DNA of 36,284 nt from the NCBI GenBank assembly GCA_023700845.1, contig JAMPYD010000004.1, forward strand, positions 1 through 36,284, in the 5' to 3' direction. Positions 6,701 through 34,565 of this stretch are shown here, one piece after another. The notes beneath the pieces are model-generated. The model did no database searches. It saw only the letters and a program-made list of their open reading frames with translations, and was not told the origin of the DNA. Each line of letters starts with the position of its first letter. The first letter of the stretch is position 1. The DNA comes from Elusimicrobiota bacterium. GTDB taxonomy: Bacteria; Elusimicrobiota; Elusimicrobia; UBA1565; UBA9628. The translations under genes were made by a program, and so were the position numbers.

Positions 6701-9700
6701 CGGCGACGGGCGAGCTGGCCGCGCCGGCCGGAGGCTACGGCGTCATCTACACCAACGACGCGGGCGCCACCTGGACGGCGTTCGCCTCCTCGGTGAGCGC
6801 GCAGACGATCTTCTACGGCTTCGAGAGCCTCGCCGTCTTCCGGGGGCGCCTCTACGCGGGGCAGGGCACGAACGCGGGCGAGGGCGACATCCTCGTCTGC
6901 GACCCGGCGGTCACGGGCGAGCCCGGGGACTGCGAGTCGGGGGATTGGTCGTCGTCCCGTCCCACCGCGTACTACAGCGCGCACGCCATGCAGGTCTTCA
7001 ACGACCGGCTCTACGCGGCCTACGGCGGCTGGGGCGGGAGCGGCTACGGCGACATCGAGGTCTTCGACGGCGCCTCCTGGACGATGAGCCACGACGGGCC
7101 CGACGACCGCGTCGTCGCCCTGGCCGCCTACGGGGGCAAGCTCTACGCGGGCCGGACCAACGGCTGGAACATAGGCGGCGGAGACGTGATCGTCTGCGAC
7201 CCGGCCTTCACCGGCGCGGCGGCGGTCTGCGACAGCGGAGACTGGTCCATGTCCTACGACGGGACGGGCTACCAGGCCAACGCCCTCGTCGAGTTCTCCG
7301 GCCGCCTCTACGCCGGCTTCGGCTCGCCCAACGACGGGACCGGCGACATCCGCGTCTTCGACGGGAAGACCTGGACGATGAGCCACGACGGCGCCTTCGA
7401 CCGCGTGAACGCCTTCGCCGTCTACGGCGGACGGCTCTACGCCGCGGCGGCCGGCGCGGCCGGCGGCGAGGGCGACATCATGGTGTGCGACCCCCGCGCG
7501 ACCGGACTGCCGGCGTCGTGCGAGGCCGGTGATTGGAGCGTGTCGCACGACGGGACCACGGCCGAGGTCAAGTCCCTCTCGGTCTTCAACGGGTTCCTGT
7601 TCGCGGGCCTCGGCGCGGCCGCGGGCGACGGCGACCTCCTGGTCTTCGACGGGGCCGCCTGGAGGCGGGTGTACAACGGGACCTCCGACGCCCTCACCTC
7701 CCTGGCCGCGTTCAACGGGCGGCTGTACGCCGGCTCCCGGGCCGCCGGGCAGGCCCGCGTGCTGCGGCTGACCCCCGCCGTCTCCTCCGTCACCTACACG
7801 GCCGCCCAAGGCTCGACCGGCGCCGAGACGCTGTCGGCCGTGATCCCGACGTTCGCCGATTCGCTGAACTCGGCCGTCTGCGGCGGGACCGCTCCGTGCA
7901 CCGCGACGAACCAGGTCTACTTCGCGGCGGGAGACCTCGCGGCGAACGCCGTCCACGGGCCCTACGCCGTCCTCATCGACACCTCGGTGACCGCGAGCGC
8001 GGACGACGTCGTCTCCGTCCGCTCGACCGGCACCTGGTACGCGACGAGCTCCTTCACCTTCACCTCCTCCTTCGCCGGCGCGGGCTACTACCGCTTCGTG
8101 TTCGACGCGAACGCCGGCCACGCCTTCGACGACTCCGAGCCGGTGTGGGGCTCCGGCACGCTGAGCACCGGCCCGGCCTCGCCGGGCGGCGCGTTCTACC
8201 TCCACCTGAAGCCCTTCACGCTGGCGGACGTCGCGGGGGCGACGCGCGACCTCGGCCCGTTCCGCTTCGACCCGAGCACGCCGGTCCTGTCGGGCTTCGC
8301 CGCCCTCGACCTCGGGGGCGCGCCGTTGGCCGAGGGCGCGCCGCTGCGCCTCGCCTCGGGGGTCACCGTCCAGATCCTCGTGCAGGATGGCTTGAGCGGT
8401 CTCAGCGTCCGTCCGAGCCTCGCCTCCGACCGGTTCGAGACCGGCCTGCCGGAGCGCTGGGTCTCCACCGGCCCGACGGCCTGGTACGCGACGGCGGATT
8501 CGGCCAACAGCGGCGCCTTCAGCCTTCGGGCGGGGACCATCACGCACGGCCAATCGACGGGCGTCGAACTGGTCCGGCGCGTCCGCGCCGGCACGCTGAC
8601 CTTCCAGCGCCGCGTCAGCTCCGAGGCGGACTTCGACGCCCTTCGCTTCTTCATCGACGGACAGCTCCAGGGCTCGTGGAGCGGGACGGTCGCCTGGGGC
8701 CAGGTCTCCTTCGCCGTGACGGCGGGCACGCGCTCGTTCCGCTGGAGCTACGAGAAAGACGGCACGCTCAGCCAGGGCCTGGACAGCGCCTGGATCGACG
8801 ACGTCGTCTTCCCCGGCTCGGCCTATGTCGTGTCGTACTCGAGCGACGCGGGCGCGACCTGGCGCGTCGCGTCCGCCACCGTGACGACGGCCTTGCCTTA
8901 TGTCGCGCTGACCGGCGCCGAAGGCTCGACCGCCCAGGAGACGCTGACCGCCTACGGGCTCGACTTCGCCCACGCCCCGAGCCCCGTGACCTGCGCCGGT
9001 ACCGCCCCCTGCGCCGCGACGAACCAGGTGATCTTCAGCGCCGCGGACCGGACGGAGAATGAGAGCTCCGGGCCGTACGCGGTCAGCGTCGACACCGAGA
9101 CCTACCCCGGCTGCGAGATCACCAGGAACGTAGGCGCGGGCATGCCCTACGCGACGATCTCGGCGGGCGTAGCGGCCCTCCCGTCCACCCTGACGGGTCA
9201 TTCTTGCGTGGTCATCCGCGACGGCGCGAACTACGCCGAGCAGGTGACGGTGCGGGGCTTCACCAACAACGGCTCGTCGATAACGATCTTCGCGGACCCC
9301 GCCACGGGCCTGCGGCCGGTCGTCGATCCGCCGGCGTTCGCGACGGCCGCGTTCGTCGTCGCGAACGCGAGCGTCAGCCTCCAGGGCATCGACGTCCGGC
9401 CGACGGCGCAGTCCGTGAGCTACGGCGTTCTCGTCTCCTCGGCCTACGTGAGCCTGAGCAGCGTCAACGTGCAGGACGCCGGGGGCATGATCACCGAAGC
9501 GGGCATCGTGCTCGGCGCGGACTCGCAGTACGGCGCGGTGTCGTACGCGAGCGCGACGGTGACGGAGGCATACGGCATTCTGATCCTGGGCCGGCACAAC
9601 GTCGTCTCCTTCAGTTCGATGACGAACAGCTCCAACTCCGACAACACCGGCAAGCGCGCGCTGGCGATCCTGGGCTCGGGAGCCTCGAGCAACACCGTGA

Positions 9701-12102
9701 ATAGGGCCTACCTTGTCGGCCAGCTGGGCGACGCGGCGATGTTCGGGCCTCAGGCCGCGTTCAACACGCTCTCCAACAGCACGGCCGTCTCCTTCGGCTC
9801 GAGCATGGCCGGGCTTTATATCAACGACAGCGACAGCAACACCGTCTCGGGGAATTATTTCGAGAACATGATCGGGTACGGCGTCTATCTCGGCGCCGGC
9901 GCGCAGTATAACACGATCAGCCAGAGCACGATGATCAGCGCCGCGGCCTCCTTCAAGGCGCTCATGTTGAACGGCGCGTCGTCGAATACGGTGACGGGCT
10001 CCTTCATCCGCAACACGGCGGGGCACGGTGCCTCGCTGCAGTCCGGCGCCAGCCTCAACGTCATCAGCCAAAGCACCGTGTCGGCGGACGCCGGAGCCTA
10101 TGCCGCCGTCTACGTCGCCGGTTCCGACAGCAACACCTTGACCGGGAACATGATCGACGGAGGCCCGGGCAACGCGCTCTATCTCGATACGGGCTCCGAC
10201 TACAACACGGTGAGCCTGAGCACGCTTGCGACCTCCGGCGTGAACCGCGCGGGGCTGGTGCTCCAAGCCGCGACGAACAACCTGATCCTGCGCGTCCACG
10301 CCCAGAGCCTGGGCGGTTCCGGCGGCTATGTCGCCAATGCGAATTTCAACTCGATCCGCCTCAGCACGTTCGTGAGCGTGACGGCCGGCTATTTCGGCCT
10401 GCTGCTCGACAACGCCAACGACAACGGGGTCTCCGACGCTTCGATCCGGAGCTCGAACGGGACGGCGCTGCAGATCTACGGCGCGCGCAACGTCATCAGC
10501 CGCGCGACGATGACCGCCGGCGATCACGGCCTCTATCTGGTCGCCGCCGCGACGACCGCCGTCTACGACTCGTACATCCAGGGCTCGACGGCCGCGTACG
10601 TCAGCGGCTCGACCGGGACGATGATCGGCGGCTCGATGCTCGCGGCGACGGACGCGGCGGGCTCGGCGCTGGCCCTGGATGGGGGCAGCGTGAACCTGAC
10701 GATCGCCACCAGCACCCTGCTCGCTCCGTCGCAAGGGCGCGGCCTGGCGCTGAACCCCGGCAGCGTCGGCGTGGTGAGCATCGGCAGCGTCACCTTCGGC
10801 GGCGCCGGCCGCGGCGTCGAGATCTCCACGCAGGGCGCGAACTTCACCCTCTCCGTGGACTCGGTCACCTTCCGGGGCCTGGCATCCGGCGCGACCGCGA
10901 TCCACTTCCTGGGCGGGGCCTTCGTCTCGACGATCACGCTCGCCTACTTCGAGGACGCATCGGCCGCGCGCAACGTGAGCGCCGCGGCGCTCGACGTCGC
11001 CTCGCGCCTGACGATGCGCTCGTCGAGAGGCCCGCGCCAGGGCCCGGCGTTCGAGATGGACCCGAACGCGCTCGTCGATTGGCCTGACCTGCTGCCGCCC
11101 GGCGCGCCCTCGATCTTCACGGTGGGCCTGTCCAGCATCGGCGTGCAGTACGGCCTTGCCGGCGCGGACGCGTACGTCGTCGAGGCGTCGACGATGGCGG
11201 ACTTCAGCGGCGTGGTGCTCGCCTCCGCGACTCTGGCCCAGGCGGCGCGGCTCGCGCCGCAGACGCTCGATCCGAACACGACCTATTTCCTGCGCGCGGG
11301 CTCGGTGTGGGGCGGGTCGACGATCTACGCGCAGGCCGTCCTCTCCACCGCGACCCTCTCCGCGCTGGTCCAGGGAACGACGGTCTACCGGATCGACGTC
11401 ACGAGCATGATCGTCAACTGGCTGCCGCTCCCGCTCGCGCCTCCGGACGCCTCGTCGATGTCCTCCTCCGGCTACATCCTCGAAGTCTCCACCCGTTCCG
11501 ATTTCGTCCCTCTCTGGACCTCGTCCGCGACTCCCAACGCGGCGCTCTCGACCTTGACCGCCTCGGGCCTCCTCGGCGGCGACACCTACTACTTCCGCGT
11601 CGGCTCGCTGAACTGGAACGGGATCCCGAACTACGCCGCCGCGGTCTCCACCTTGATGCCGGTCCAGCTCGGCGTCGAGCTCACCACGCACACGCTGAGC
11701 CTCCCGGGCCTGACCGCCATGAACACGACGATCTCGATCAGCACGAGCATCGTCGTGACGAACACCGGCAACGTCCTCGAGACGTACGCCCTGAGCGCGA
11801 CGACGATCACGCCCTCGAGTCCATGGAAGATCGGCGCATCGCCCGCGGTGGACGTGTTCACGCTGTGGACCGTCGTCAACAGCACGCAGGCCGGCTCGAT
11901 CGACTTCACGGCGGGACACAAGCTATCCGATGCCGAGACTTCATGCGGCGAATCGGTGTTCACGATGGGCAACCAAAGCTGCGTGCAGGTGCCGATCGGA
12001 CAGTCCCGCACGCTCTGGTTCCAGATTTCGACCCCCCTTGCGACGAGCACGGGGGCGGCGCAGGACGTTCGGATCACCGCGCGCGCGGTGAAGGATCCTT
12101 AA
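1..12102 (+). CDS. Giant modular secreted/surface protein, 5' end outside window
   Basis: The frame is open from the first base, so at least 4033 residues are visible and the start lies upstream. Modules by nucleotide: glycine-rich region 1-740; uncharacterised domain 740-1050; two fibronectin III-like domains 1051-1400 and 1405-1700; five copies of a domain beginning around the motif STGTW (about 1708, 2818, 4573, 6271, 7993); two choice-of-anchor J/MAM-like beta-sandwiches (about 2143-2520 and 8427-8820); three predicted seven-bladed propellers (3337-4365, 5080-6063, 6787-7782); a right-handed beta-helix (9112-11085); two more fibronectin-like domains (11095-11660); and a C-terminal domain (11665-12099) resembling the protein of the next gene. 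Paired cysteines (C-x10-C in blades, C-x5-C after each repeat) suggest disulfides in an oxidising compartment. Likely role is adhesion or glycan binding at the cell surface; this is inferred from architecture only. Confident as a real gene, function unknown. Confidence 0.9.
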   Translation, partial: TRNGGGAGGGGSYGGGGGGGGGSAARAFGLSSGAGGAGGSTGVAAGGGGGSGNYGAGGNGGAAGNPGGGNGSCNGCTGVGGAAGSGAFTGTGGGASTFKMNSGGSGGGGGGLYGSAALSQLFLGSGGGGGGASNEGPVSGATGGSGGGILLILSSSVINSGTIASNGGAGSNGGAWSAPYGGGGAGSGGSVLVRSLAFSNSATFTAVGGGPGSAGGNSGNNMGGAGGGGGGVGRVRIEADAITQGTVNPAPATAGAPSAAGSDWVFFDNPSPADGATLAATLLPGSDAAGSYAESDPTPNNPNLIADGQEGEWDFALDPVNTVSGRYYLRMTRASATPLTGYTNLAIIDARVPPSAVDDLSAAPVEGSSTTLLLSWSAPGDDGDTGALLAGSSYYIQHSTDAAVVFSTTAAQVVLSTAGVYPGVLQQHALTGLSGNTTYHLRVWTADPAGNLSALSNGATTVTMSPAVSAARVDSVLLSSVTANWSPLPDASVSGSSNSAQGYVLEASTAADFSGVVGSSRTLGVSLSTLTIAGLAGDATYYFRVGSLNFASTAHYSLAGSTYVAPYAVADAIIAGQSTGTWYSSSSFTFSSSFAGAAYYRVVFDANAGHSWTGTEARWDPPGALTVQAADGQGWYLHALPHDAGGAPGVSRDIGPFWRDGTPPAASAFRSYDSTAGVLGETQVNDLTAGVTVQVTVSDLLAGMRSSPVARVFGFESAGLPTGWTTGGDANWSAQTAIVYAGTSSIRSGGIGADQSTYLETLLTTLGGYTTFYRRVSSQSGGDYLEFYINGSLQGSWSGENPWTVSVYAVPAGTAAFRWQYIKNGWESSGSDAAWLDAVSLPPVVAFSARYTRDAGATWTDLRSTSSLTGPYLSLTGSDGSLAGETLKILGLQLNFSTNAATCAAASPCGATNQVYFTAEDAAGNSRESGPYAVLVATTPSARDVSSPFSTGTWSSAAAVPFESTFSSAAYYRYFWDTAASHSWTETETIWSAPDGPLSLAATIDSQDWHLHVLPYNVLGSSGAPRAFGPYWTDAAAPAGSGFDHISSTGGALGESQLTTLMAGATVRLTVTQDSFSGLLLSTTAVPGYAAYAPGGAGSLFTNDGGASWVAFSSAASYSGSFDEFRALAVYQGKLYAGQGSGGGGGDVYACAPATGGSSTACEAGDWTLSANNAHSAVNALAVFRGRLYAGLGSNAGNDDIQVYDGAAWASSYDSNLGIVNAIHALAEYKGKLYATRGGAAAGNGDVLVCDPALTGAADVCDPGDWSFAYDGARLEFRSLSVFNGLLYAGQGSAAGDGDIYVCRPGATGGQETCENGDWSLSRDGASGSVYALEAFGGRLYAGLGYAAGQGDIYACDPALTGAAHVCDAADWSRDYDGATASVLSLKAYKGFLFAGTGSAAGDGDLKVKIGPAWKPVLDGAQETVSALMPFEGDLYAGQGLYNPDGRVVRLTPWVSSTALTGADGTTAAQSVSALIPALAASPDTTVCGGVSTCTARNQIVFAVSDLAGGVAQIGPFAVIASSTAYADEVAGPATGTWLTTSTMSFTSAFARTAYYRYAWDTSASHAWTEAEARWDPAAGITVQAAPGGQGWHLHVLPYSLTDGSGTPRDLGPFWSDGAPPAASAFRLYSSSGGLMGESQAIDLIGGATVQISLQDLGSGLLLSTGSLPGAAPASGGPGVVFSTDAGRTWSAMSAPVLARSDGNSWVTLAEYSDRLYAGMGPGAGAGDTYSCNPAATGDAAVCEAADWSLSRSVSYDIVNAAAVFNGKLYLGYGNDAGEGDIEVFDGAAWSNSYNGSQSNIYALAVFRGRLYAAQAGSAGTGDVLVCSPAATGDAQTCDAGDWSVALDGAGSNAYSLVALNGVLYAQTDDASGILRLLACTPGATGEADICDAGDWSVGYASQGSYNNGLIAHDGKLFRSEYNTGRILVCDPSRSGRAEICESGDWATEYDGADSNNYYFGRSGGDLFAGPLNGNYIVKRSSGVWRQAGSVPGNVRSLQSFNGRLYAGDSGADVYLFSPLVSSITVTGADGSTALETLTAVLPTLVNSTNSQTCGGGYPCGATNQVAFTIMDAAGNALWAGPYAVIVATTADAAAVVGPSTRAWVSFATFTFNSSFVNAAYYRRAWEASPSHAWTEAETRWDSVDGPLHLEASAPGTEYYLHVLPYNVLDSSGAPRVLGPYRRDDAAPAFSGFRVVSSTGGLMAESQLVDLAAGVTVQIQVQDLLSGLHVATAAATGELAAPAGGYGVIYTNDAGATWTAFASSVSAQTIFYGFESLAVFRGRLYAGQGTNAGEGDILVCDPAVTGEPGDCESGDWSSSRPTAYYSAHAMQVFNDRLYAAYGGWGGSGYGDIEVFDGASWTMSHDGPDDRVVALAAYGGKLYAGRTNGWNIGGGDVIVCDPAFTGAAAVCDSGDWSMSYDGTGYQANALVEFSGRLYAGFGSPNDGTGDIRVFDGKTWTMSHDGAFDRVNAFAVYGGRLYAAAAGAAGGEGDIMVCDPRATGLPASCEAGDWSVSHDGTTAEVKSLSVFNGFLFAGLGAAAGDGDLLVFDGAAWRRVYNGTSDALTSLAAFNGRLYAGSRAAGQARVLRLTPAVSSVTYTAAQGSTGAETLSAVIPTFADSLNSAVCGGTAPCTATNQVYFAAGDLAANAVHGPYAVLIDTSVTASADDVVSVRSTGTWYATSSFTFTSSFAGAGYYRFVFDANAGHAFDDSEPVWGSGTLSTGPASPGGAFYLHLKPFTLADVAGATRDLGPFRFDPSTPVLSGFAALDLGGAPLAEGAPLRLASGVTVQILVQDGLSGLSVRPSLASDRFETGLPERWVSTGPTAWYATADSANSGAFSLRAGTITHGQSTGVELVRRVRAGTLTFQRRVSSEADFDALRFFIDGQLQGSWSGTVAWGQVSFAVTAGTRSFRWSYEKDGTLSQGLDSAWIDDVVFPGSAYVVSYSSDAGATWRVASATVTTALPYVALTGAEGSTAQETLTAYGLDFAHAPSPVTCAGTAPCAATNQVIFSAADRTENESSGPYAVSVDTETYPGCEITRNVGAGMPYATISAGVAALPSTLTGHSCVVIRDGANYAEQVTVRGFTNNGSSITIFADPATGLRPVVDPPAFATAAFVVANASVSLQGIDVRPTAQSVSYGVLVSSAYVSLSSVNVQDAGGMITEAGIVLGADSQYGAVSYASATVTEAYGILILGRHNVVSFSSMTNSSNSDNTGKRALAILGSGASSNTVNRAYLVGQLGDAAMFGPQAAFNTLSNSTAVSFGSSMAGLYINDSDSNTVSGNYFENMIGYGVYLGAGAQYNTISQSTMISAAASFKALMLNGASSNTVTGSFIRNTAGHGASLQSGASLNVISQSTVSADAGAYAAVYVAGSDSNTLTGNMIDGGPGNALYLDTGSDYNTVSLSTLATSGVNRAGLVLQAATNNLILRVHAQSLGGSGGYVANANFNSIRLSTFVSVTAGYFGLLLDNANDNGVSDASIRSSNGTALQIYGARNVISRATMTAGDHGLYLVAAATTAVYDSYIQGSTAAYVSGSTGTMIGGSMLAATDAAGSALALDGGSVNLTIATSTLLAPSQGRGLALNPGSVGVVSIGSVTFGGAGRGVEISTQGANFTLSVDSVTFRGLASGATAIHFLGGAFVSTITLAYFEDASAARNVSAAALDVASRLTMRSSRGPRQGPAFEMDPNALVDWPDLLPPGAPSIFTVGLSSIGVQYGLAGADAYVVEASTMADFSGVVLASATLAQAARLAPQTLDPNTTYFLRAGSVWGGSTIYAQAVLSTATLSALVQGTTVYRIDVTSMIVNWLPLPLAPPDASSMSSSGYILEVSTRSDFVPLWTSSATPNAALSTLTASGLLGGDTYYFRVGSLNWNGIPNYAAAVSTLMPVQLGVELTTHTLSLPGLTAMNTTISISTSIVVTNTGNVLETYALSATTITPSSPWKIGASPAVDVFTLWTVVNSTQAGSIDFTAGHKLSDAETSCGESVFTMGNQSCVQVPIGQSRTLWFQISTPLATSTGAAQDVRITARAVKDP
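3337..4365 (+). repeat. Predicted seven-bladed beta-propeller 1 of giant protein
   Basis: Seven units follow the pattern (A/S)L-x-x-(F/Y)-x-G-x-L-(Y/F)AG-x-G, then a GD-(I/V/L)-x-V strand and a W or GDW motif ending near YDGA. Units 1, 3, 4 and 5 carry a C-x10-C pair (for example VCDPALTGAADVCDPGDW). Units 2 and 6 are the short cysteine-free form, and unit 7 ends RLTPWV. Seven is the commonest propeller blade number, which supports the fold. Confidence 0.7.
5080..6063 (+). repeat. Predicted seven-bladed beta-propeller 2 of giant protein
   Basis: Seven units in the same order of long cysteine-bearing and short types as the first propeller. Units 4 to 6 have diverged most: the YAG motif is replaced by YAQT, FRSE and FAGP. 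The last unit ends in LFSPLV. The shared unit order indicates that the whole seven-unit block was duplicated rather than single blades. Confidence 0.65.
6787..7782 (+). repeat. Predicted seven-bladed beta-propeller 3 of giant protein
   Basis: Seven units; the fourth is the short form (VFDGKTWTMSHDG) where the other two propellers have the cysteine-bearing form, so long and short units alternate more regularly here. The last unit ends RLTPAV. A C-x5-C module with a TNQVYF motif follows, as it does after the other two propellers. Confidence 0.65.
9112..11085 (+). repeat. Right-handed parallel beta-helix region of giant protein
   Basis: Repeated short coils with the pattern S-N-T-V-(S/T)-G-x-x-(F/I), G-x-x-L-x-x-G-A-x-x-N-x-I-S-x-S-T are visible across about 650 residues, with Asn ladders typical of PbH1/NosD-type solenoids. 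Such domains occur in polysaccharide-binding or polysaccharide-degrading proteins and in adhesins. No obvious catalytic set was identified by eye, so a binding or spacer role is as likely as an enzyme. Confidence 0.7.
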
Positions 12103-13720: not shown

Positions 13721-15646
13721 ATGGACCATAGTCCCCTCAAGAGGGGCATGCGGGCGCTCGCCGCCTTGGCCGCGGCGAGCTGGCTGCTGGCCGTTCCCGG
13801 TACGGGGACGGCTCGGGCCGCCGCGTCCGACTCCTTCACCGTCACGATCGTCCCTCGCGACGTCTGGCCCCCCACGCCCGTGACCGACCTGGTCGCGGTC
13901 CCGGGCGCGGAAGGCCAGATCCTGCTGCAATGGACGGCGCCGGATTCCAACTCGAACGCGCTCGGCACGCTGACGCCCGCGGCCGGCTACCTGATCCGGA
14001 TCGCGAGCTTCTCGGTCGCCTCCGTCGGGGGCAGCACGACGGCCTGGTGGGGCGCGGCGGCGGACGTGCGCGCGCTGCCGCCGCCGGCTCTGAGCGTCGT
14101 CCCCCCCGCTCCGGGAGCCCCGGGCGCCGCGGAGAACCTTCTGCTCAACCAGCTCGAGCCCGGCGTCACGGTCTACGCGATGCTCGTGAGCTCGGACACG
14201 GCCGGGCAGCTCTCCGACTCCGACCTCCCTTCGCGCACGCCGCTGGCCCAGGCCAACGCGCTCGTCTTCGACGCGGTCCCGCCCGCTCCCGCGTCGATCG
14301 CGGCGGCGCAGAACGGGATCGGCAGCGTTCTCGTCTCCTGGCCCGCTTCGCCGGCCTCCGACCGCGACTACTACCGGCTGCTCGTCGACTCCACGGCGCC
14401 GCGCGACTTCTCCGATGAATACGCCGTCCTGGTCGATTCGCCCGCCCTGACGGCGACCTTGACCGGCTTGGCCGCGGGCGTCTACGCTCTGCGCATCGCT
14501 GTCGTCGATAAAGGCCTGCCGTCGCACGCCGGGATCGCGCTCGCCAGCCCGGCGGCGAGCTCGACGACCGTGACCGTGGCCTCGAGCATTCTGCTGCCGC
14601 AGGCGCCGTTCGGGGTGGCCATGTCCAGCGCCGGCGCGGCGGTGACCGTGAGCTGGATGCCCGTGGAGCGCTACGAGGACGGCGCCGGCTTCGCCGATCC
14701 GACCGCGGCGCTGTCCTCGGAGCTCTCCGCCTACCGCGTCTATCGCGCGACCTCGGTCGTCGCCGGCGGCTGGACCCAGCAGATCCAGCTGTCGAGCTCG
14801 ACCTTGATCTGGACCGATCTCGCGGGCGGCCCGCAGTATTTCTATCACGTGCGCGCGGAGAACGAAAGCGGCCTGTCGGCGCGCTCGGTGTTCCGTTCCG
14901 TCGGGACGCTGTCGGCCTTCGTGATCGCGCCCGACGACCGCAGCTACTTCGAGGTGCCCTCGCAGAGCGTGCTTCCGATCGAGGGGACCGCCGGCCAGGC
15001 TCCGACGGCCTACCTGGCCGCGGCCGCGGCGCGTCCCCAGGATCTGGGCGGGCGGGTGGTCAAGTCGATCGAGTTCACGGCGATGCAGGGCGGGCAGACT
15101 TTGGCGCCGAATTTCTCGCTCCCGGTCATGGGCCGCCTGAAGCTGCGCTACGAGATGAACGCGTCGTCGGTGGTGCCCTCGGGCATGTCGGCGGCCGCCG
15201 TGCCGGCCAACCCGAGCAACATCGGCGTCTACTGGTACAACGGCTCGGCCTGGGTCCAGATGTACGGACGGCTCGATCAGACGGACCAGTCGCTGAACCT
15301 TGAGACGAAGTATTTCGGCATATACCAGCTGCGCATCGTCGAGCGCGCGACCGACTTCGCTTTCGACCAAGCGGGCGTCTCGAACCGGTTCGTCACGCCC
15401 AACGGCGACGGACGCAACGACTCGGTCGTGTTCTCCTACGACAACCCGAAAGACGTCTCGGTCCGCGCGCGCATCATGGACCTGAAGGGGCGCGTGATCG
15501 TCCCCGAGCTGCCCCAGGGTCCGGTCACGAACAGCCGCGTGTGGGACGGCCGCGCCGGCGGCGCCTACGTGCCGGGCGGGGTCTACCTGTACCAGATCGA
15601 AGGTGAGGGCCGGACCTTCAGCGGAACGATCGTGATTCTGAAATAA
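13721..15646 (+). CDS. Secreted fibronectin-type protein with FlgD/CHU_C-like C-terminal domain
   Basis: 641 residues; AGGAG at 13712-13716 precedes the ATG. The signal peptide covers about residues 1-33, and the mature start DSFTVTIVP is close to that of the 219-residue protein upstream. Fibronectin III-like domains lie near residues 45-175, 185-285 and 295-400. A domain near 405-545 has the YWYNGSAW motif often found before FlgD-like ends. The C-terminal 85 residues begin VTPNGDGRNDSVVF and finish with a WDGR...GGVYLYQI...GTIVIL pattern typical of FlgD-Ig/CHU_C domains. In Bacteroidota related domains are type IX secretion sorting signals. Export and surface attachment are likely; sorting by a PorV-type route is inferred from the PorV-like gene nearby. 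Confidence 0.85.
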   Translation: MDHSPLKRGMRALAALAAASWLLAVPGTGTARAAASDSFTVTIVPRDVWPPTPVTDLVAVPGAEGQILLQWTAPDSNSNALGTLTPAAGYLIRIASFSVASVGGSTTAWWGAAADVRALPPPALSVVPPAPGAPGAAENLLLNQLEPGVTVYAMLVSSDTAGQLSDSDLPSRTPLAQANALVFDAVPPAPASIAAAQNGIGSVLVSWPASPASDRDYYRLLVDSTAPRDFSDEYAVLVDSPALTATLTGLAAGVYALRIAVVDKGLPSHAGIALASPAASSTTVTVASSILLPQAPFGVAMSSAGAAVTVSWMPVERYEDGAGFADPTAALSSELSAYRVYRATSVVAGGWTQQIQLSSSTLIWTDLAGGPQYFYHVRAENESGLSARSVFRSVGTLSAFVIAPDDRSYFEVPSQSVLPIEGTAGQAPTAYLAAAAARPQDLGGRVVKSIEFTAMQGGQTLAPNFSLPVMGRLKLRYEMNASSVVPSGMSAAAVPANPSNIGVYWYNGSAWVQMYGRLDQTDQSLNLETKYFGIYQLRIVERATDFAFDQAGVSNRFVTPNGDGRNDSVVFSYDNPKDVSVRARIMDLKGRVIVPELPQGPVTNSRVWDGRAGGAYVPGGVYLYQIEGEGRTFSGTIVILK

Positions 15647-15716
15647 AGCCCCTTTAATCGATTTCGCCGGCCCGAAACACGGATTTCGCATGCTTTCTCC
15701 ATAATAGGGGCAGCCC

Positions 15717-16076
15717 ATGCCCTTTCTGAGATCCGCCTTCCTTGCCTTCAGCCTGTGCGTTTCCGCCGCTTTGCCGGGGCCCGCTCCGCTGGGATTCGCT
15801 TTCGCAGGCGCGACGAACCGTGTCATTACTCCCAACGGGGACACCCTTAACGACAGCGTCACCTTCCGCTTCACCAATCCGAGGGAGTCGAGCGGCTTCA
15901 TCCGGATTTACGACCTGCGCGGGCGGGAGCTGCGCAACCTGTCGATCTCGATCGGCGACACCTCTAAGGCCTGGGACGCGCGCGCCAACGGGCAGATCGT
16001 GGCCGCCGGCGTCTACATCTACGTCCTGAGCATCGAGAGCCGCACCTACTCGGGGGCTGTCGTGGTGGTCCGATGA
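15717..16076 (+). CDS. Minimal secreted FlgD/CHU_C-like domain protein
   Basis: 119 residues: a signal peptide (about residues 1-31) and one FlgD/CHU_C-like beta-sandwich. Visible motifs are VITPNGDTLNDSVTF, IYDLRGRELR and AGVYIYVL, matching the end of the 641-residue protein just upstream. AGGGG at 15706-15710 lies six bases before the ATG. Its stop overlaps the start of the PorV-like gene (ATGA). A freestanding copy of what is normally a C-terminal sorting or anchoring domain is unusual. It might be a partner or competitor of the PorV-like barrel, or a small surface subunit; no direct evidence separates these. Confidence 0.85.
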   Translation: MPFLRSAFLAFSLCVSAALPGPAPLGFAFAGATNRVITPNGDTLNDSVTFRFTNPRESSGFIRIYDLRGRELRNLSISIGDTSKAWDARANGQIVAAGVYIYVLSIESRTYSGAVVVVR

Positions 16077-18073
16077 GAGCCGCGCTCGCGGTCCTCCTCG
16101 CCGTCATTTTCGCCGCGGCCCCCGCGCGCGCGGCGTTCGAGGAGACCGGGGCGGGCGCCCGCGCCCCGGGGATGGGCGACGCCTTCACCGCTCTGGCCGA
16201 CGATGCCTATTCGATCCATTACAACCCCGCCGGGCTGGCGCAGCTGGAGCGGCCGCAGTTCGCCGCGGCGTACTCCAAGCTCTACGCCGGGCTGTCCGAC
16301 GGCACGGACATCGGCTTGTCCCAATTGGCTTACGCGCACCCTCTCGCCCGCGGGCGCCAAGGTACTTTGGGCCTGTCCTGGGAGCGCTTCTCCCTGAGCG
16401 GCCTCTATCAGGAGCAGGTGCTGGCGGCGGCCTACGGTCGGCAGGTCCTGGGAGGGACGCAGGGCGGCAAGCTCTATCTCGGCGCGACCGCCAAACTCCT
16501 CGCGCGCTCCTTCAATCGAGGTGCCGAGGCCTCCAACGCCTGCAGCGGCCTCAACTGCTCGCTGGGGGCGGATCCCGTCTTGTCGGGCTCGAATTCGACC
16601 AGCGCCCCCGATCTGGACCTCGGTCTGATCTACCGTTTTCCCCGCCGCCTGCAGGCGGGGCTGAGTCTTCAGCACGCGCTGCGGCCCAACGTGGCCTTCG
16701 CCGGCGACGACAAGCTCGAGCGGGCGCTGAACGCCGGCCTCGCGTACAAGTCGCTGTGGATGAGCCTCGCCGGTGAGCTGAAGCTGCGCCGGGCGGCCGA
16801 CGGCGCGACGGCTCGGGACGCGATCTTCGCGGCCGAGCGCTACTTCCCCTCGCTCGACTACGGGCAGTTCGGCGTACGCGGCTCGATCGGGTTCGGCAGC
16901 GCTGACTGGCGGCAGTTCACCGTCGGCGCCTCATACCGGATCAACAAGATCCAGGCCGACTATGCCTACCTGATCCCGATCGGCGGCGTCCAAGGCCAGT
17001 CGGGCTCTCACCGCGTCGGCCTGAGCTTTCATTTCGGCGCGCCTTCGGCCGACGAGGAATTGGCGCAGGAGATGCTCGAGCAGAAAAAGCGCATGACGGG
17101 GGGCCTGCCCGCCGTCTCTACCGGCGCCCCCGGATTCGGCTACGAATACGCCGAACAGGCCCGCCCGCAGGATCTCTCCGACCCGCGGCTCGACGCCGTG
17201 CGCGCGTTGATCCTTCAGCGCCGCTATCGCGCGGCGAAGGTCGCCTTCGACGCGCTCGCCAAGGCCCAGCCCATGGGCCCCGGCCTCGAGCGCCTTGGCC
17301 TGCGTCTCGATGACGCGGCGTATCACTACGCCGACCTTCCCGAGCCCGCCGCCCGCCCCGACAAAGGCGTGGTCGACGCGATCGCGGCCTATCTCAATGG
17401 GGAGGATCGCGAGGCCCTTCTGCACGCTTCCTACGCCCTCTCGCTCAGCGGCGAGGATGCGCGCATCGAGTCGTTCGTGCAGACCCTGGAGAAGAAGACC
17501 GGGCTCAAGGCCGACCGCCTCCCAGCCGGGCATTCGCGCGGGTTCATCGACGAGCTCCTGTGGCGCGTCGAGTTCGCGCACACGCGCGGAAACTCGGCCC
17601 AGGTCGAGGCCTTGCTGACAGACGTCATCCGCCTCGAACCCGAGAACATAACCGCGCTCTCCCGACTGGGCTCCCAACGCTATCTGCTGGGGCGCTACCT
17701 CGAGGCGGTCCAGTCCTGGGAAGCAGCGGAAAAGATCGAGACCCGCGAGCGGGAGCTCGTGTCGCTGCGCGCGTACCTCAAGCTCGCGCGCGAAGCGGCC
17801 TCGGGCAAGTCCCTGCCCGGCGGCTTGGCGCCCGCGGCCTCCGCGCCCGAGCCGTCGCTCGAGCGCGACGGCCTCCCGCGTCGCGCCTCCCCCGTCCCGA
17901 ACGGAGACCCCCGTCAGATCGAGGCCCTGTACCAGAAGGGCGTCGAGCATTACGCGCGCGGCGAGTACCTGCAGGCCAGCGCGATGTTCCTGCGCATCCT
18001 GCGCATCGACCCCGGAAATGCGCCGGCCCGCAAGGCGCTCGACCGGATCGAGCGCGCCCGCCCCGCGAGATGA
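16073..18073 (+). CDS. PorV/UPF0164-type outer-membrane barrel fused to TPR region
   Basis: 666 residues; its ATG overlaps the stop of the 119-residue gene. A signal peptide ends near APARA (residue 21). The mature N-terminus carries the family hallmark: ARAPGMGDAFTALADDAYS followed by NPAGLA. Alternating strands with aromatic ends continue to about residue 325 and close with HRVGLSFHF. From about residue 380 the protein is helical with TPR-like units, the last at about residues 615-650 (ALYQKGVEHYARGEYLQASA). PorV in Bacteroidota is an outer-membrane shuttle for type IX secretion; PorV-like proteins elsewhere are less understood. The TPR part should be periplasmic. Its stop overlaps the start of the histidine kinase gene. 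Confidence 0.85.
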   Translation: MRAALAVLLAVIFAAAPARAAFEETGAGARAPGMGDAFTALADDAYSIHYNPAGLAQLERPQFAAAYSKLYAGLSDGTDIGLSQLAYAHPLARGRQGTLGLSWERFSLSGLYQEQVLAAAYGRQVLGGTQGGKLYLGATAKLLARSFNRGAEASNACSGLNCSLGADPVLSGSNSTSAPDLDLGLIYRFPRRLQAGLSLQHALRPNVAFAGDDKLERALNAGLAYKSLWMSLAGELKLRRAADGATARDAIFAAERYFPSLDYGQFGVRGSIGFGSADWRQFTVGASYRINKIQADYAYLIPIGGVQGQSGSHRVGLSFHFGAPSADEELAQEMLEQKKRMTGGLPAVSTGAPGFGYEYAEQARPQDLSDPRLDAVRALILQRRYRAAKVAFDALAKAQPMGPGLERLGLRLDDAAYHYADLPEPAARPDKGVVDAIAAYLNGEDREALLHASYALSLSGEDARIESFVQTLEKKTGLKADRLPAGHSRGFIDELLWRVEFAHTRGNSAQVEALLTDVIRLEPENITALSRLGSQRYLLGRYLEAVQSWEAAEKIETRERELVSLRAYLKLAREAASGKSLPGGLAPAASAPEPSLERDGLPRRASPVPNGDPRQIEALYQKGVEHYARGEYLQASAMFLRILRIDPGNAPARKALDRIERARPAR

Positions 18074-28759: not shown

Positions 28760-28781
28760 GCGTGTTTATCTTGAGATAAAC
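28760..28781. repeat. Copy 1 of a 22-bp near-palindromic element
   Basis: The core is GTTTATC, TTGA, GATAAAC (28764-28781), a perfect 7-bp palindrome with a 4-base centre. A second copy is at 31569-31590 (19 of 22 bases equal). It lies 53 bases beyond the omp85-type stop. The AT-rich stem is unlike the GC-rich surroundings, which fits an operator or a weak terminator. Confidence 0.55.
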
Positions 28782-28833
28782 GTGCGCTCGCTCGGTCCCG
28801 AGCCGGGTGGATGGACGCCGCCGGGCGGACGGC

Positions 28834-30504
28834 TTAGTATAAGCGGGAGGGAGGGCTGGGGTCGACGCCGCGGGCGGCGCTGTTGAAGAGGCTGAAGGCC
28901 TGCCCGCCCTTGATCGAGATGACCCAGCGCGAGGAGGTTCCGGGGCCGCGGTTGAGCGCGTAGGCGACGTCGAGCCGGCCCACCGCGCCGCTGCGGGAGC
29001 GCGTCGAGGCCGCGCGCAGGCCCAAGCCGACGTCGGAGCGGATGTCCCGCAGCGTCATGTCGGACCCCGCGCGGCCGACGATGCCGCTGTCGACGAACAG
29101 CGCCGCTCCCAGGCGGACGAGATGGAAGAACTCCCCGGGGAAGAAGAAACGGTCCTCGAAGTTGACGAGCACGGCCTGGGAGCCGACGAAGCTGTTGTTC
29201 TTGTACCCGCGCAGGCCGGTGCTGCCGCCGAGGGCCACCGAGCTGTCGCGGTCGAGGAACTTCCCGAAGGCCCCTTCGATGTGGCCGACCAAGGTGTGGT
29301 CTCCGCGCCAGTGGGTCTTCCAGAAGAAGTTCAGGTCCGCGTTGGCCAGCGCGTTCTCCCATCTCCCGGTCGCGGTGCGCCCCGACAAGGCGACCCGGCC
29401 GATCGCGAACCGGCCCGGAGCGAAGCGCACGCCGTGCTGGTTGGAGACGCTGAAGATCGAGCGGTCGCGGTCGGAGCCCGTCTTGGAGGACATCCAGCCG
29501 CCGCGGACGGAGAGCTCGTTGCCGAGGTTGAAGTCCTCGACGCGCTCCATGCGGTCGATGTAGGTCTCCTTGATGTAGTCGGGCTGCACCCACGCGTAGC
29601 CGATCGTCGGGCCCGACAGCTCGCGTTCGTGGGGCAAGGTTCCGGCGGAGGTGCCGGCCAGCGGCTCGTACTTCGCCTCGTCGCTGTACCAGCCGGCCTC
29701 CACGCGCTGGACGAAGGTCTGGTCCGCCTCGAGGCGGCGCCCGAGGGAGGCCTCCGCGACGCGGCGCTTCATGCGGAACTCCGTGAACACCTCGCCGTCG
29801 CGGTACAGCTCCGGCTCGGTCGTCGCGCGCAGCCAGGAGACGGCCGAGGCGCGGCGCGAATCGAGCGAATAGAAGGGGCTCGTCAGCGAGGCGGAGGCCG
29901 CGTCGCCCGTGCTCCCGCGCGAGTAGCCGCCGTTGAGCGCGAGGCGGGTGCCCATGAAGCGCGGGTCCCCGTAGCTGTAGGAGCTGTAGGTCCGCCGGCC
30001 CGTGCGGCCGTAGTCGATCGCGACGCTCTTGCCGTAGCCGAGGATGTTTCCCTCCTCGAGGCCCATCGAGAAGAAGCTCTCCCCGCCCTCGGTGCCGGCG
30101 GCGAAGCGCGGGTTCGTCGTCCAGCTGTCCTGGCTGCGCACGACCGCGTCCACCCGTCCGTCCGGCCTCGTCACCGGGAGGATGTCGACGCGCCGGAAGG
30201 ACCCGTTGGCCCGCAGGTTGCGTTCGGACTGGATGACCTTCAGCGGGTCCCAGACCTCGCCCGGCGCGAACAGGAGCTCCCGGCGGATGACCGTCTCGCG
30301 GGTCGGGTAGTGGATCTTGTTGGCGAGGCGGAACGGCCAAAAATCCTCGCCCGGCACGGTGGGGTCGAACACGTTGACGCGTTCGACGCGGATCTCCACG
30401 ATCTCCGCGCCGGCCGGCTCGGGCGACGGCTCCTCGACCTGCCGGGCGCCGGCGGCGCGCGCGAGGAGCAGCGCGGCCGCGAGGAGCCCGGCGGCCCGCT
30501 TCAT
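28834..30504 (-). CDS. Omp85-superfamily outer-membrane protein with one POTRA-like domain
   Basis: 556 residues from the ATG at 30504, which overlaps the metF stop (ATGA). Signal peptide about residues 1-21. One POTRA-like domain (about residues 68-135) shows ETVIRRELLFAPGEVW and SERNLRANGSFRRVDI. A beta-barrel follows, with the family motif GGSTGLRGYKNNSF near residue 428 (equivalent to the VRGF/LRGY lid-lock motif), then a NFEDRFFF strand. It is shorter than BamA, which has five POTRAs, so it is more likely a specialised Omp85 such as a secretion or lipid-handling barrel than the essential BamA. The substrate is unknown. The C-terminal residue is Tyr rather than the common Phe. Confidence 0.88.
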   Translation of the reverse strand: MKRAAGLLAAALLLARAAGARQVEEPSPEPAGAEIVEIRVERVNVFDPTVPGEDFWPFRLANKIHYPTRETVIRRELLFAPGEVWDPLKVIQSERNLRANGSFRRVDILPVTRPDGRVDAVVRSQDSWTTNPRFAAGTEGGESFFSMGLEEGNILGYGKSVAIDYGRTGRRTYSSYSYGDPRFMGTRLALNGGYSRGSTGDAASASLTSPFYSLDSRRASAVSWLRATTEPELYRDGEVFTEFRMKRRVAEASLGRRLEADQTFVQRVEAGWYSDEAKYEPLAGTSAGTLPHERELSGPTIGYAWVQPDYIKETYIDRMERVEDFNLGNELSVRGGWMSSKTGSDRDRSIFSVSNQHGVRFAPGRFAIGRVALSGRTATGRWENALANADLNFFWKTHWRGDHTLVGHIEGAFGKFLDRDSSVALGGSTGLRGYKNNSFVGSQAVLVNFEDRFFFPGEFFHLVRLGAALFVDSGIVGRAGSDMTLRDIRSDVGLGLRAASTRSRSGAVGRLDVAYALNRGPGTSSRWVISIKGGQAFSLFNSAARGVDPSPPSRLY

Positions 30505-31370
30505 CCGCGTCTGAGCCGCGCCAGGATCTCGGAGGTCGAATGCGAACGGTTGAGCGTGTAGAAGTGTATCCCGGGGGCTCCGCCGTCGAGCAGCTCGCGG
30601 CACTGGCGCGCGGCCCATTCGACGCCTTCCCGGACCACGGCCTCGGCGTCGTTCTGCACGGCGGAGAGGCGCTCCTCGAGCTCATGGGGGATGCGGGCGC
30701 CGCACATCGCCGTGAAGCGCTTGAGCTGCGCGTAGCCCGTCACCGGCATGATGCCGGGCACGATGGGGACGGCGACCCCCGCGGCGCGCGCGCGGGCGAC
30801 GAAGGCGAAGTAGTCCTTGTTGTCGAAGAAGAGCTGGGTGATCGCCCAGTCCGCGCCAGCGACGGACTTGGCCGCGAAGCGCGCCAGGTCGTCCTCGGGC
30901 GAGCGCGCCTCCGGGTGCGTCTCGGGATAGCCGGCGACCGCCATCCTGAACCCCCCCCGCTCCTTGACGAAGGCGACGAGGTCGCCGGCGTAGCCGAAGT
31001 CGCGCTCCCCGGGGGGCGCGACGGGGTGGTCCTTGGGCGGGTCGCCGCGCAGCGCCACGACGTTGCGGATGCCGAGCGTCTCGAGGCGGGCCAGCACGCC
31101 GAGGATCTCGGCGCGCGTGTGCGCGATGCACGTCAGGTGGCACGCCGTCGTGAGGCCGGTCTCGTTCTGGATGCGTCCCGCGGCCTCCACCGTGCGCTCC
31201 CGCCCGGAGCCGCCGGCGCCGTAGGTCAGGGACACGTAGTCGGGAGAGAGGTCCTTCAGCGCCTTCACGTCGGCGACGAACTTGTCGAGGTCCTCCGGCG
31301 CCTTGGGCAGGAAGAACTCGAAGGAGAACAGCGGGCGCCCTTTTCCGAAGAGCTCGGCGATGTCGTGCAC
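30501..31370 (-). CDS. metF: Methylenetetrahydrofolate reductase
   Basis: 289 residues from the GTG at 31370 (reading VHDIAELF), the usual MetF length; a further 46-codon extension upstream runs through an inverted repeat and is rejected. Family motifs in order: FSFEFFLPK (catalytic Glu), YVSLTYGAGGSGRERT, TACHLTCIAHTRAEI, NVVALRGDPP (flavin-contacting Asp) and WAITQLFFDN. The enzyme reduces 5,10-methylene-THF to 5-methyl-THF for methionine synthesis. Its coupling to an Omp85 gene is odd, because the two have no known functional link. Confidence 0.95.
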   Translation of the reverse strand: MHDIAELFGKGRPLFSFEFFLPKAPEDLDKFVADVKALKDLSPDYVSLTYGAGGSGRERTVEAAGRIQNETGLTTACHLTCIAHTRAEILGVLARLETLGIRNVVALRGDPPKDHPVAPPGERDFGYAGDLVAFVKERGGFRMAVAGYPETHPEARSPEDDLARFAAKSVAGADWAITQLFFDNKDYFAFVARARAAGVAVPIVPGIMPVTGYAQLKRFTAMCGARIPHELEERLSAVQNDAEAVVREGVEWAARQCRELLDGGAPGIHFYTLNRSHSTSEILARLRRG

Positions 31371-31425
31371 GCCGGGGATATTACCAAATGTCGGCCGCGC
31401 GTCGCCTTCATGACGGCTTTGTGAC

Positions 31426-31553
31426 GGCCCGGCGGCGGTTTCATGTCCTTCGGGGCCGCTCGGCATTGAGCCTCGCTTGGGGTCGACCGCGATCGACGGA
31501 GCAAACATCGCGGCGACCCCACACCCCTCAGGACATGAAACCGCCTCCGGGCC
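31426..31553. repeat. Nested inverted repeat upstream of metF
   Basis: The outer arms 31426-31449 and 31530-31553 pair over 24 bases with one mismatch (core GGCGGTTTCATGTCCT). The inner arms 31479-31493 and 31507-31520 pair over 14 bases with one bulge (GGGGTCG...CCGCGAT), leaving a 13-base loop. It may be a leader RNA, a terminator, or a MITE-like element; no target-site duplication is evident. Confidence 0.7.
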
Positions 31554-31568
31554 TCAGCACGCCGCAGC

Positions 31569-31590
31569 GCGTGTTTATCTCAAGATAATC
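31569..31590. repeat. Copy 2 of the 22-bp near-palindromic element
   Basis: The core TTATCT, CA, AGATAA shares the flank GCGTGT with the first copy (28760-28781) in the same orientation. It lies 48 bases beyond the stop of the 975-residue TPR gene, matching the 53-base distance in copy 1. Confidence 0.55.
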
Positions 31591-31637
31591 ATGCCCGACT
31601 TCGATCCTCCTCGCCGGACCGCAGCGACATTCCTCGC

Positions 31638-34565
31638 CTAGGAGGACTTGCCTTTGGCGGAGCGAGTCTCGCTTTCCTCGATGAGGCGCTTGTACTCGTC
31701 GATGACGGTGGGGTCGGTATTGACCATGCTCGCGGTCTTGAAGTCGCCCGCGGCGTTGCCGTACTTCTGGGTGGAGGTCCAGACCGCGGCGCGGTTGCGG
31801 TAGAAGCGGTCGATGAGGGAGTTGGCGGCGATGGCGCGCGAGAAGCTCTCGAGCGCGTCGTCCTGGCGCTTCAGCGCGAAGTAGCCGAGGCCGAGGCCGT
31901 TCAAGGCGTTCGGATCGAGCGGGTCGTGCTTCACCGCGAGCGAGTAGTTCTCGAGCGCCTTCGGATACTGCTTGAGGAAATAGTGGACGTTGCCCGCGCG
32001 GAGGTAGGCCTCGGCGTTCTTGGGGTCGACCTGCAGAGCTTTTCCTAATTCTCCGATCGCGGCCTTGTAGTTGCGGCGCATCGTCAGGACGATCGCCAGC
32101 TTCACGCGCGCGCCCGCGTCGTTGGGCTCGAGCTCGAGCGCGCGCACGAGGTCCTGCTGCGCCGCCTCGAGAGCGTCCTGGGCGGTCAGCGCGACGCCGC
32201 GCCCGACGTAGGCGTCCGCGACCGAGCCGTCGAGCTCCATGGCCTTCGTGTACTCGAGCACGGCCTTGTCGAATTGCTCGGAGTTGTGCAGCGAGTCGGC
32301 GCGCAGGATGAACACGTACGGGTCGTCCATGTCCTTGGTCATCCGGCCCTCGAGGTCGACGATCGCGGACAGGAAGTCGTCGCCCTGGGGATGCCCGGCG
32401 GCGAAGCCGATGTAGGCGCTGCGCACGTAGGGATCCATGCCGACGGCCTCGAGATAGACGCGATGCGACTCCTTGTACTGCCGCGAGGCGGCGTGCGAGA
32501 TCGACTTCGCGATCAGGCCCTCGGCGCGGCGCGTGCCGAGCGCCCAGGCGGTGTCGATGTCCTCGATCACGCGCGGATACTGCTTCAGCGCGAACTTCGC
32601 GAGGGCGCGATGGAGGTAGGCGGGCCCGTGCTGGCTGTCGAGCTCGATGGCGCGCTCGCAGGCCTTGAGCGCCCCCCTCGGGTCCCGCGCCAGGCGCCGG
32701 GCCTGGCACAGATAGGTCCAGGTGTCCTTCGAACGGGGCTCGAGCTCGAGCGACTTCTGGAAGTCGGACTGCGCGGCTTTGAGCTGGCTCAGCGCGGCGT
32801 AGGCGAGGCCGCGGTGCTGATACGCGCTGGCGAGCTTGCCGTCGAGCTGCAGCGCCTGGCTGAGGTCGCGCACCGCCTGCTCGTAGTCCCGCGCGCGCAG
32901 GCGGATATGGCCGAGGGTGTCGTAGATCGCGGCGTTGTTGGGGTCCTTCTCGAGGGCGGCCTCGATGTCGCGGCGGGCGCCCGAATGATCGCCGAGCTGG
33001 AACTCCGCGTCGGCCCGGCGCTCCAGGATGCGGGCCGCCGGGCCCTTCAGCTCGAGGGCGGCGTTGAACGAATCGATGGCCTTGAAGTACATCCGGCTGC
33101 GCAGGCGCAGCGAGCCGAGGTTGTAGTGGTAGCCGGGCTCGCGAGGCTTCAGCTCGACGGCCGTCATCACGTCGCGCAGCGCCCTCTCGGGCTCCTTGAG
33201 GGCGTTGGCGTACAGCGCGCCGCGCCCGTTGTAGGCCTCGGCGTGCTTGGGGTCCGAGGCGATGGCCTTGGTGAAGTCCTCGAGAGCCAAGGTCGGCTTC
33301 TCGACGCGGGCATAGAAGCTCGCCCGCGCGACGAGGATCTCGGGGTCCGCCGGCGCGAGGCGCACGGCGCGGGTCAGGTCCGAGATCGCGGGGGCGTTCT
33401 GGCCCATGCGCGAGAGCAGCGAGCCGCGCGCGGCGATCACGGGAGCGTTCTCCGGCTCGAGCTTGATCGCGGCGTCGAGGTCGGCGAGCGCGCGCTTGAG
33501 GTCCTTGTCGGATTCGTGCACCCGCGCCCGGCGGACGAGGGCCGCGACGCCGGCGCCGAGGTCGAGGGCGCGGCCGTAGGAGACGGCCGCGTCCTTCCAC
33601 AGCTGCAGGGACAGGTGCCGGTCCCCGATCGCGAGGGCGGCCTCGGGGGTGAGCTTCGGCGAGGTCATCGCGTTGCGGAAGTCGGCGAGCGCCAGCTCGC
33701 GGCGCCCGCCGCGCCAATGCATCTCTCCGCGGTTGAAGTAGGGAGCGTAATCCTGGGCGTCGGCGCGGACCGCGTCCTCGAAGTCCTTCAAGGCGCCGGG
33801 CTCGTCTCCCTGGCGCAGCTTGAGCGCCGCCCGGCCGAGGTACGCATAGGAGTATTCGGGATCGAGCGAGATCGCGCGGTCGTAGGCCTTCGCCGCGCGC
33901 TTCAGGTCGCCCTGCCGGGCCATCGCCGAGCCGACGAGGGCGAACGCCAAGGTGAAATTCTTATTGGAGCGCAGCGCGGCGGTCAGGCTCGCGACGGCCT
34001 TCGCGTCGTCGCCCTTGTCGTAGAACGTCCTTCCGCGCGAGTAGAGCCAGAGCGCCGCCTTCGGCTCGAGCTTGAGGGCCGCCTCGAGGTCGGCCAGAGC
34101 CTTGTCCAGGTCCCCCTTCTCCCGCCACACCCGGGCGCGGACGTACAGCGCGCGGGCCGTCTTCTGGTCGGCCTTCAAGGCGGCGTTGGCGGTCTCGAGG
34201 GCCTTGTCGGCGCGGCCGAGGAGCAGCTGCGCCCCCGCCTTCGAGACGAGCTCATCGACGGCCAGCGACCCGGTGCCGACGCCGAGCAGCTCGACCGCGC
34301 GCGTCGCGTCGGCCTTCTGCCGGGTGAGGTCGCCCGCCGCGTGCCAAAGGCGCGCGCGCAGCTCGTAGGCGCCGCCGCTGCGCGCGTCGGCCAGAAGGGC
34401 CTCGTTGACGGAGCGCATCGAGTCCTTGAAGTCCCCGCGCTGGTATTGGAGCTGGGCTTCGCCCAGGATGCGGCGCGCCGCGCCTTTATCGGCCGCCAAA
34501 GTCGGCGGGACGAGCAAGGCGAGGGCGGCGACGGCCAGCGCGAGCGATCGTGCGGTCTTCAACAT
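31638..34565 (-). CDS. Large secreted TPR-array protein
   Basis: 975 residues. A signal peptide (about residues 1-24, ending PPTLA) is followed by TPR units over nearly the whole length, at least two dozen by eye. Typical units are GDLDKALADLEAALKLEPKA and GDLKRAAKAYDRAISLDPEY. A less regular segment lies near residues 690-735. The C-terminal end is charged (EESETRSAKGK). It probably acts as a periplasmic or outer-membrane-facing scaffold for protein assemblies; partners are unknown. The start at 34565 has no Shine-Dalgarno, and a promoter-like pair sits immediately upstream. Confidence 0.9.
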   Translation of the reverse strand: MLKTARSLALAVAALALLVPPTLAADKGAARRILGEAQLQYQRGDFKDSMRSVNEALLADARSGGAYELRARLWHAAGDLTRQKADATRAVELLGVGTGSLAVDELVSKAGAQLLLGRADKALETANAALKADQKTARALYVRARVWREKGDLDKALADLEAALKLEPKAALWLYSRGRTFYDKGDDAKAVASLTAALRSNKNFTLAFALVGSAMARQGDLKRAAKAYDRAISLDPEYSYAYLGRAALKLRQGDEPGALKDFEDAVRADAQDYAPYFNRGEMHWRGGRRELALADFRNAMTSPKLTPEAALAIGDRHLSLQLWKDAAVSYGRALDLGAGVAALVRRARVHESDKDLKRALADLDAAIKLEPENAPVIAARGSLLSRMGQNAPAISDLTRAVRLAPADPEILVARASFYARVEKPTLALEDFTKAIASDPKHAEAYNGRGALYANALKEPERALRDVMTAVELKPREPGYHYNLGSLRLRSRMYFKAIDSFNAALELKGPAARILERRADAEFQLGDHSGARRDIEAALEKDPNNAAIYDTLGHIRLRARDYEQAVRDLSQALQLDGKLASAYQHRGLAYAALSQLKAAQSDFQKSLELEPRSKDTWTYLCQARRLARDPRGALKACERAIELDSQHGPAYLHRALAKFALKQYPRVIEDIDTAWALGTRRAEGLIAKSISHAASRQYKESHRVYLEAVGMDPYVRSAYIGFAAGHPQGDDFLSAIVDLEGRMTKDMDDPYVFILRADSLHNSEQFDKAVLEYTKAMELDGSVADAYVGRGVALTAQDALEAAQQDLVRALELEPNDAGARVKLAIVLTMRRNYKAAIGELGKALQVDPKNAEAYLRAGNVHYFLKQYPKALENYSLAVKHDPLDPNALNGLGLGYFALKRQDDALESFSRAIAANSLIDRFYRNRAAVWTSTQKYGNAAGDFKTASMVNTDPTVIDEYKRLIEESETRSAKGKSS

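Follow-up and report, generated by a model that had tools for sequence, protein, structure and literature searches.

The closest described counterparts of the repeats reported here are the REP/REPIN (BIME) sequences and their RAYT/TnpA_REP transposases, which resemble them in being short, dispersed, non-coding intergenic palindromes that form inverted doublets, often lie 3' of genes and are patchily distributed. They differ in that REP/REPIN hairpins measure about 20-65 nt, whereas the units found here measure about 115-150 nt with a predicted three-way junction; moreover, the aligned copies carried no GTAG/GTGG tag at the foot, no associated transposase was found, and copies numbered in the tens rather than the hundreds. 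The ERIC/RU-1 sequences are imperfect palindromes. These 127 bp enterobacterial repeats (PMC2759123) share with our units an intergenic location, a MITE-like character and a similar length, but they are known from enterobacteria rather than Elusimicrobiota, and are set apart here by description. The CGTC-tagged REPs (PMC3733652) likewise form inverted dimers for which a dedicated transposase is not known, although their stems are 8-9 bp long as opposed to outer stems of 24-30 bp with internal branches in the present case. Finally, some of the long self-complementary terminal inverted repeats (TIRs) of the TIRYT transposases (TnpA_Y1 subclass 2.1; PMC3733652, PMC6006769) disperse as dimers, and Y1 genes are present in the genomes studied here; the Y1 genes that we checked, however, had other TIRs or none, and the GGGGWSAS motif was not exactly matched by the GGGG(A/C)CG of our unit.

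The locus lies in a 36,284-nucleotide stretch of an Elusimicrobiota assembly (GCA_023700845.1, contig JAMPYD010000004.1), the whole of which is referred to as the window. The original prediction had placed a 128-bp nested inverted repeat at 31426-31553, 56 bases before the start of metF, and pairing of the arms located it there, with the spacing correct for the start at 31370 given by the gene call (Table 1). The outer arms were 30 nt each, separated by 68 nt and paired at 27 of 30 positions (90% complementary); the predicted 24-base outer stem with one mismatch corresponds to the outermost 24 of these positions, and the predicted inner stem of 14 pairs with a single bulge was recovered from both the sequence and the fold. 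A third stem (GCTCGGC-ATTGA-GCCTCGC) had been overlooked, as had the extension of the inserted DNA to about 31634, and with this stem present the unit is modeled as a three-way junction in which P1 closes the structure and P2 and P3 branch off. RNA folding of the unit gave -100.3 kcal/mol, compared with -60.2 ± 4.3 kcal/mol for 200 dinucleotide shuffles (z = -9.4, 0/200), and DNA folding gave z = -9.5 against such shuffles; with stability so far beyond that of its shuffles, the inverted repeat is not due to chance.

Table 1. Features of the metF region, in window coordinates
Feature	Position	Strand	Basis or remark
metF (methylenetetrahydrofolate reductase)	30501..31370	-	PF02219, E 4.5e-91; start from gene call
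Predicted metF extended -10 promoter TTTGGTAATAT (relatives TTTGCTANAAT or similar), outside insertion	31378..31388	-	Aligned upstream regions, 9 genomes
Inserted DNA between TPR gene and metF, about 219 bp	31416..31634		G003 empty junction; five more relatives without element
P1, 5' arm, unit A outer stem	31426..31455	+	Arm pairing; covariation at 22/24 P1 pairs
P2 hairpin, conserved ATTGA loop, internal TC/TC mismatch in window	31458..31476	+	Sequence; variants across copies
P3, 5' arm, inner stem, A31486 bulged	31479..31493	+	Fold; covariation
P3, 3' arm, inner stem	31507..31520	+	Fold; covariation
P1, 3' arm, unit A outer stem	31524..31553	+	Arm pairing; covariation
Palindrome TGTTTATCTCAAGATAATCA within insertion	31572..31591		Distinct short repeat or operator specific to the clade; not observed in the linkers of other elements
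Relic of unit B far end (inverted second unit)	31601..31634	-	34 nt, 88% identical to full element L071 at +370..+403
TPR-repeat protein gene upstream of metF, same strand	31638..34565	-	Pfam TPR families

A DNA search of relatives revealed many dispersed copies, reaching 99% identity to the window, in five other genomes of the genus (G007, G003, G016, G001 and G015), in which copies at unrelated places were 69-98% identical; about 35 copies were aligned with their flanks. A covariance model (R1), built from aligned units and searched across genomes of the genus, family, order and phylum, yielded matches in 15 of the 19 genus genomes, with up to 36 in G007 and 17 in the single-contig G010, and none in the other four (G002, G008, G011 and G018); the window's own genome (G000) contained two further units (C193:52-175 and C407:6552-6657). 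Unit counts, gene calls and E-values are approximate, the genomes being mostly draft MAGs. The family is restricted to this genus within Elusimicrobiota: outside it, R1 matched a few genomes of the family and one of the order, never more than twice apiece, and all six genomes matched among 199 from the phylum belonged to the genus. An exact core of the unit, searched among about 85,000 species, occurred in Elusimicrobiota only, and the public records containing it were Elusimicrobiota MAGs, some of them named as groundwater isolates; phages, plasmids and viral contigs yielded no match to this core or to the window copy. The 44 elements whose gene context could be classified with a simple codon-based gene caller were all intergenic (0 inside genes), lying between convergent (18), tandem (19) or divergent (7) genes. 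The units were dispersed rather than arrayed with cassettes, and a tandem array or integron attC array was accordingly rejected. In four genomes (L073, L081, L108 and L257), a gene resembling an M16 peptidase by eye had hairpin units at both ends.

Comparison beyond the hairpin showed that the unit is one half of a larger element. Intact elements were about 390-400 bp long and consisted of unit A, a linker of 13-158 bases, often with a small hairpin of its own, and then a relative of unit A in the opposite orientation; each unit comprised a P1 of 24-30 pairs, P2 with its ATTGA loop and the P3 hairpin, and fully paired variants of P2 occurred in other copies. This A(+)B(-) layout was fixed: among 123 units listed, all 38 close pairs faced each other in (+,-) orientation across a gap of 13-158 bases, although the 38 include some orthologous pairs and are not all independent. 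In the window, unit A was complete but only a 34-bp relic of unit B was found; the copy is a half-deleted element in which most of the linker and of unit B is missing. At one orthologous site (L075/L080), the second units had similar outer stem sequences but differed in their type of core (P2/P3), which gave the impression of an exchange of cores between copies. A palindrome, TGTTTATCTTGAGATAAACA, occurring in the window at 28763-28782 and 31572-31591, was found nine times in G000, seven times in G007 and four times in G001 at up to two mismatches and was absent from 10 other genus genomes (reversed control, 0); it may represent an operator specific to the clade or another small repeat, and one copy is located inside the insertion.

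Empty sites in relatives pointed to mobility. The equivalents of window positions 31635 and 31415 were joined directly in G003 (L040 positions 1464/1465), and the element was also absent from this site in G016, G015, G006, G005 and G004; sequence comparison fixed neither the exact ends of the element nor a duplication of its target site, and the limits of the insertion are approximate. Similarly, the G007 copy in L071 had empty sites in G003, G016, G000 and G015, all of them in the gap that separates one and the same pair of convergent genes, from stop codon to stop codon. The window unit was identical at 126 of 128 positions to a non-orthologous copy in G007, while the orthologous flanks of the two genomes were about 87% identical, and near-identical copies with different flanks in G017 started with the same pattern. 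Mobility is thus suggested by comparing the sequences of genomes, most of them draft MAGs. Several sites were occupied in three or four genomes whose flanking proteins were mostly 82-90% identical, with arms that had changed and were still paired; such orthologous occupied sites fit long-lived insertions as well as they fit a kept function.

As evidenced by extensive compensatory change, it is chiefly the fold that has been kept, and the arm sequence less so. P1 sequences were almost wholly different between groups (e.g., GGCCCGGCGGCGGTTTCATGTCC versus CGGGGAGGAGGATCGACCC) and still paired. Fifty units were aligned for structure, and the figures that follow are not probabilities, since these units are related to one another and themselves supplied the alignment from which the structure was derived. 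RNAalifold returned 36 pairs, 31 of them changed on both sides; its P2 pairing looked misplaced and was excluded from the pair counts, so that pairing in P2 rests on the reading of variants. For the structure tested, which comprised P3 and P1, the latter including the two G-C pairs that lie innermost (33 pairs in all), 95.5% of cells were paired compared with 72.9% in shuffles, compensatory (double) changes occurred at 30 of 33 pairs, and 335 cells carried double changes as opposed to 102 in shuffles; sliding the partner by one to three columns lowered pairing to 39-52%. Both the further copies in the genome and the compensatory changes on which the original prediction had staked its reading of the repeat were therefore found. 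Template switching, in which one arm is repaired using the other as template, could likewise keep the arms paired.

We consider it likely that the repeats are REPIN-like non-autonomous mobile elements with unusually large units that are moved in trans, and that the window hairpin is one surviving unit. Of the three origins that the original prediction had proposed, a MITE-like insertion agrees best with these data: related copies are dispersed, relatives have an empty site and the element has no coding capacity, being short, non-coding and repeated with inverted units at both ends. A recombination site is a fitting description only in the sense that a mobilizing enzyme must recognize the structure. 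In the mechanism we propose, the arms of single-stranded element DNA would fold into a Y shape, which a trans-acting enzyme would recognize in order to copy or move the element, as is thought for TnpA_REP on REPINs; copies would be tolerated at the 3' ends of genes, and in the window copy most of the linker and of unit B would later have been deleted. No description of this repeat family, and none in the phylum, was found in open-licence papers, and the family is apparently undescribed. If this reading is correct, it adds a REPIN-like family whose branched units are much larger and for which no transposase is known, in a phylum for which our limited search found no described case. It would also make testable what enzyme is responsible for moving such repeats, and whether this enzyme acts on folded single-stranded DNA.

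An alternative is that these repeats are canonical REPINs, whose REP units belong to a Y1/HUH transposase (RAYT/TnpA_REP) and are moved by it in trans. Their inverted dimers, intergenic 3' placement and restriction to a genus match the REPINs of PMC3733652 and PMC6006769, and Y1_Tnp (PF01797) was commoner in unit-rich genomes (6 in G003, 5 each in G007, G015 and G016, and 8 in G010) than elsewhere in the genus (mostly 0-1). As in REPINs, palindromic units were dispersed over many intergenic places with two inverted units per element, but a RAYT gene with these units on its flanks was not found: there was no unit within about 2.5 kb of any of 40 Y1_Tnp loci examined, strong hairpins near just one Y1_Tnp gene were unrelated to the unit, and several Y1 genes were flanked by unrelated inverted repeats of their own (GGTGTCAGGCCT...AGGCCTGACACC). 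Furthermore, G012 (92% complete) had no Y1 match despite 17 model matches, nor did the unit-bearing G013 and G014; no GTAG tag was seen, and the units were several times the usual REP size. We therefore regard a canonical REPIN as unlikely and do not classify the family as REPIN despite its REPIN-like layout, because both the unit type and the link to a transposase were tested and differed from those of REPINs.

There is a modest chance that the units are instead substrates of a mobilizer other than Y1/RAYT that would recognize branched single-stranded DNA through the P2 ATTGA loop and the junction, in which case they would represent an undescribed class of mobile repeat. Neither the 40 Y1_Tnp loci nor the genes neighboring the units revealed a transposase or other mobilizing gene carrying units, no recurrent neighbor resembling a mobilizer was recognized, and no autonomous element carrying units was found among the loci examined. 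One candidate, with two units about 3 kb apart in G003 and G016, was rejected since the M16-peptidase-like gene they bracket is kept in synteny and is host DNA.

It is rather improbable that the repeat is a chromosomal element kept for its function (a transcription road-block, mRNA 3'-end stabilizer or protein-binding site) and spread by recombination rather than transposition. The persistence of copies at orthologous gene ends throughout the genus, the compensatory changes and the over-representation of convergent over divergent gene ends speak for such an element, yet the genus genomes without a match and the empty sites argue against it, as do the lack of a T-run and, at locus VI, a separate intrinsic terminator beside the element.

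Very unlikely, in our judgment, is a structured RNA (a metF leader, small RNA or 3'-UTR) under conservation of its RNA fold, even though stem covariation was very strong and orthologous copies stayed paired while their sequence changed. In P1, 1135 of 1190 cells were Watson-Crick, and because G-T cells (7) were not commoner than A-C cells (17) among the remainder, there was no sign of selection for RNA-type wobble pairs; P3 gave a small signal in the opposite direction (10 G-T versus 2 A-C). No Rfam family matched at gathering score, and copies occurred beside unrelated genes, often as inverted pairs whose transcript would contain one unit in each sense. The metF leader RNA of the original prediction was not supported, because at least six relatives have metF without the hairpin and because a conserved extended -10, present whether or not a genome carries the element, lies between hairpin and gene at a distance of 7 bases from the GTG start (31370). 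Transcription from this promoter, which is predicted from conservation, would be nearly leaderless and lack the hairpin, while read-through from the TPR gene would carry the hairpin, antisense to unit A. On this evidence, the hairpin does not appear to be the metF leader, a riboswitch was likewise rejected, and the window copy has no evident role for metF; annotators should be aware that so striking a hairpin upstream of metF is probably a transposed repeat and not a riboswitch. That the hairpin is simply the factor-independent terminator of the TPR gene, as its GC-rich sequence downstream of the stop codon might suggest, is scarcely credible given the lack of a T-run on both strands, the 30-nt outer arms, the predicted three-way junction and the many dispersed relatives; the original prediction had judged its length and near-perfect pairing to exceed an ordinary terminator.

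Several minor observations were made in the same genomes. Y1_Tnp genes at eight loci (L170, L173, L182, L189, L190, L196, L198 and L199) were tightly flanked by inverted repeats, GGTGTCAGGCCT or similar (GGGGTCAGACCT, GGTGCCAGGCAC), although at L170, L173 and L182 the inverted-repeat match was about as good as in a shuffled control. These flanked genes resemble the TIR-flanked tyrosine transposases described in PMC3733652 and the subclass 2.1 of PMC6006769; a Pfam search of one tested Y1 protein gave Y1_Tnp alone, and our visual impression is that the Y1 proteins have the C-terminal helix-turn-helix of that subclass. The G000 assembly contained two metF genes (on C375 and C216) that were 86% identical to each other, as distant as those of other species of the genus, and it may include mixed strains or MAG contamination. 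Elsewhere in the window, the proteins encoded at 13748-18073 had PorP/SprF-like and CHU_C-type domains, hinting at parts of a type IX secretion system in this Elusimicrobiota genome, and a very large ORF (127-12102; 3991 aa) had a beta-helix/NosD region near its end.
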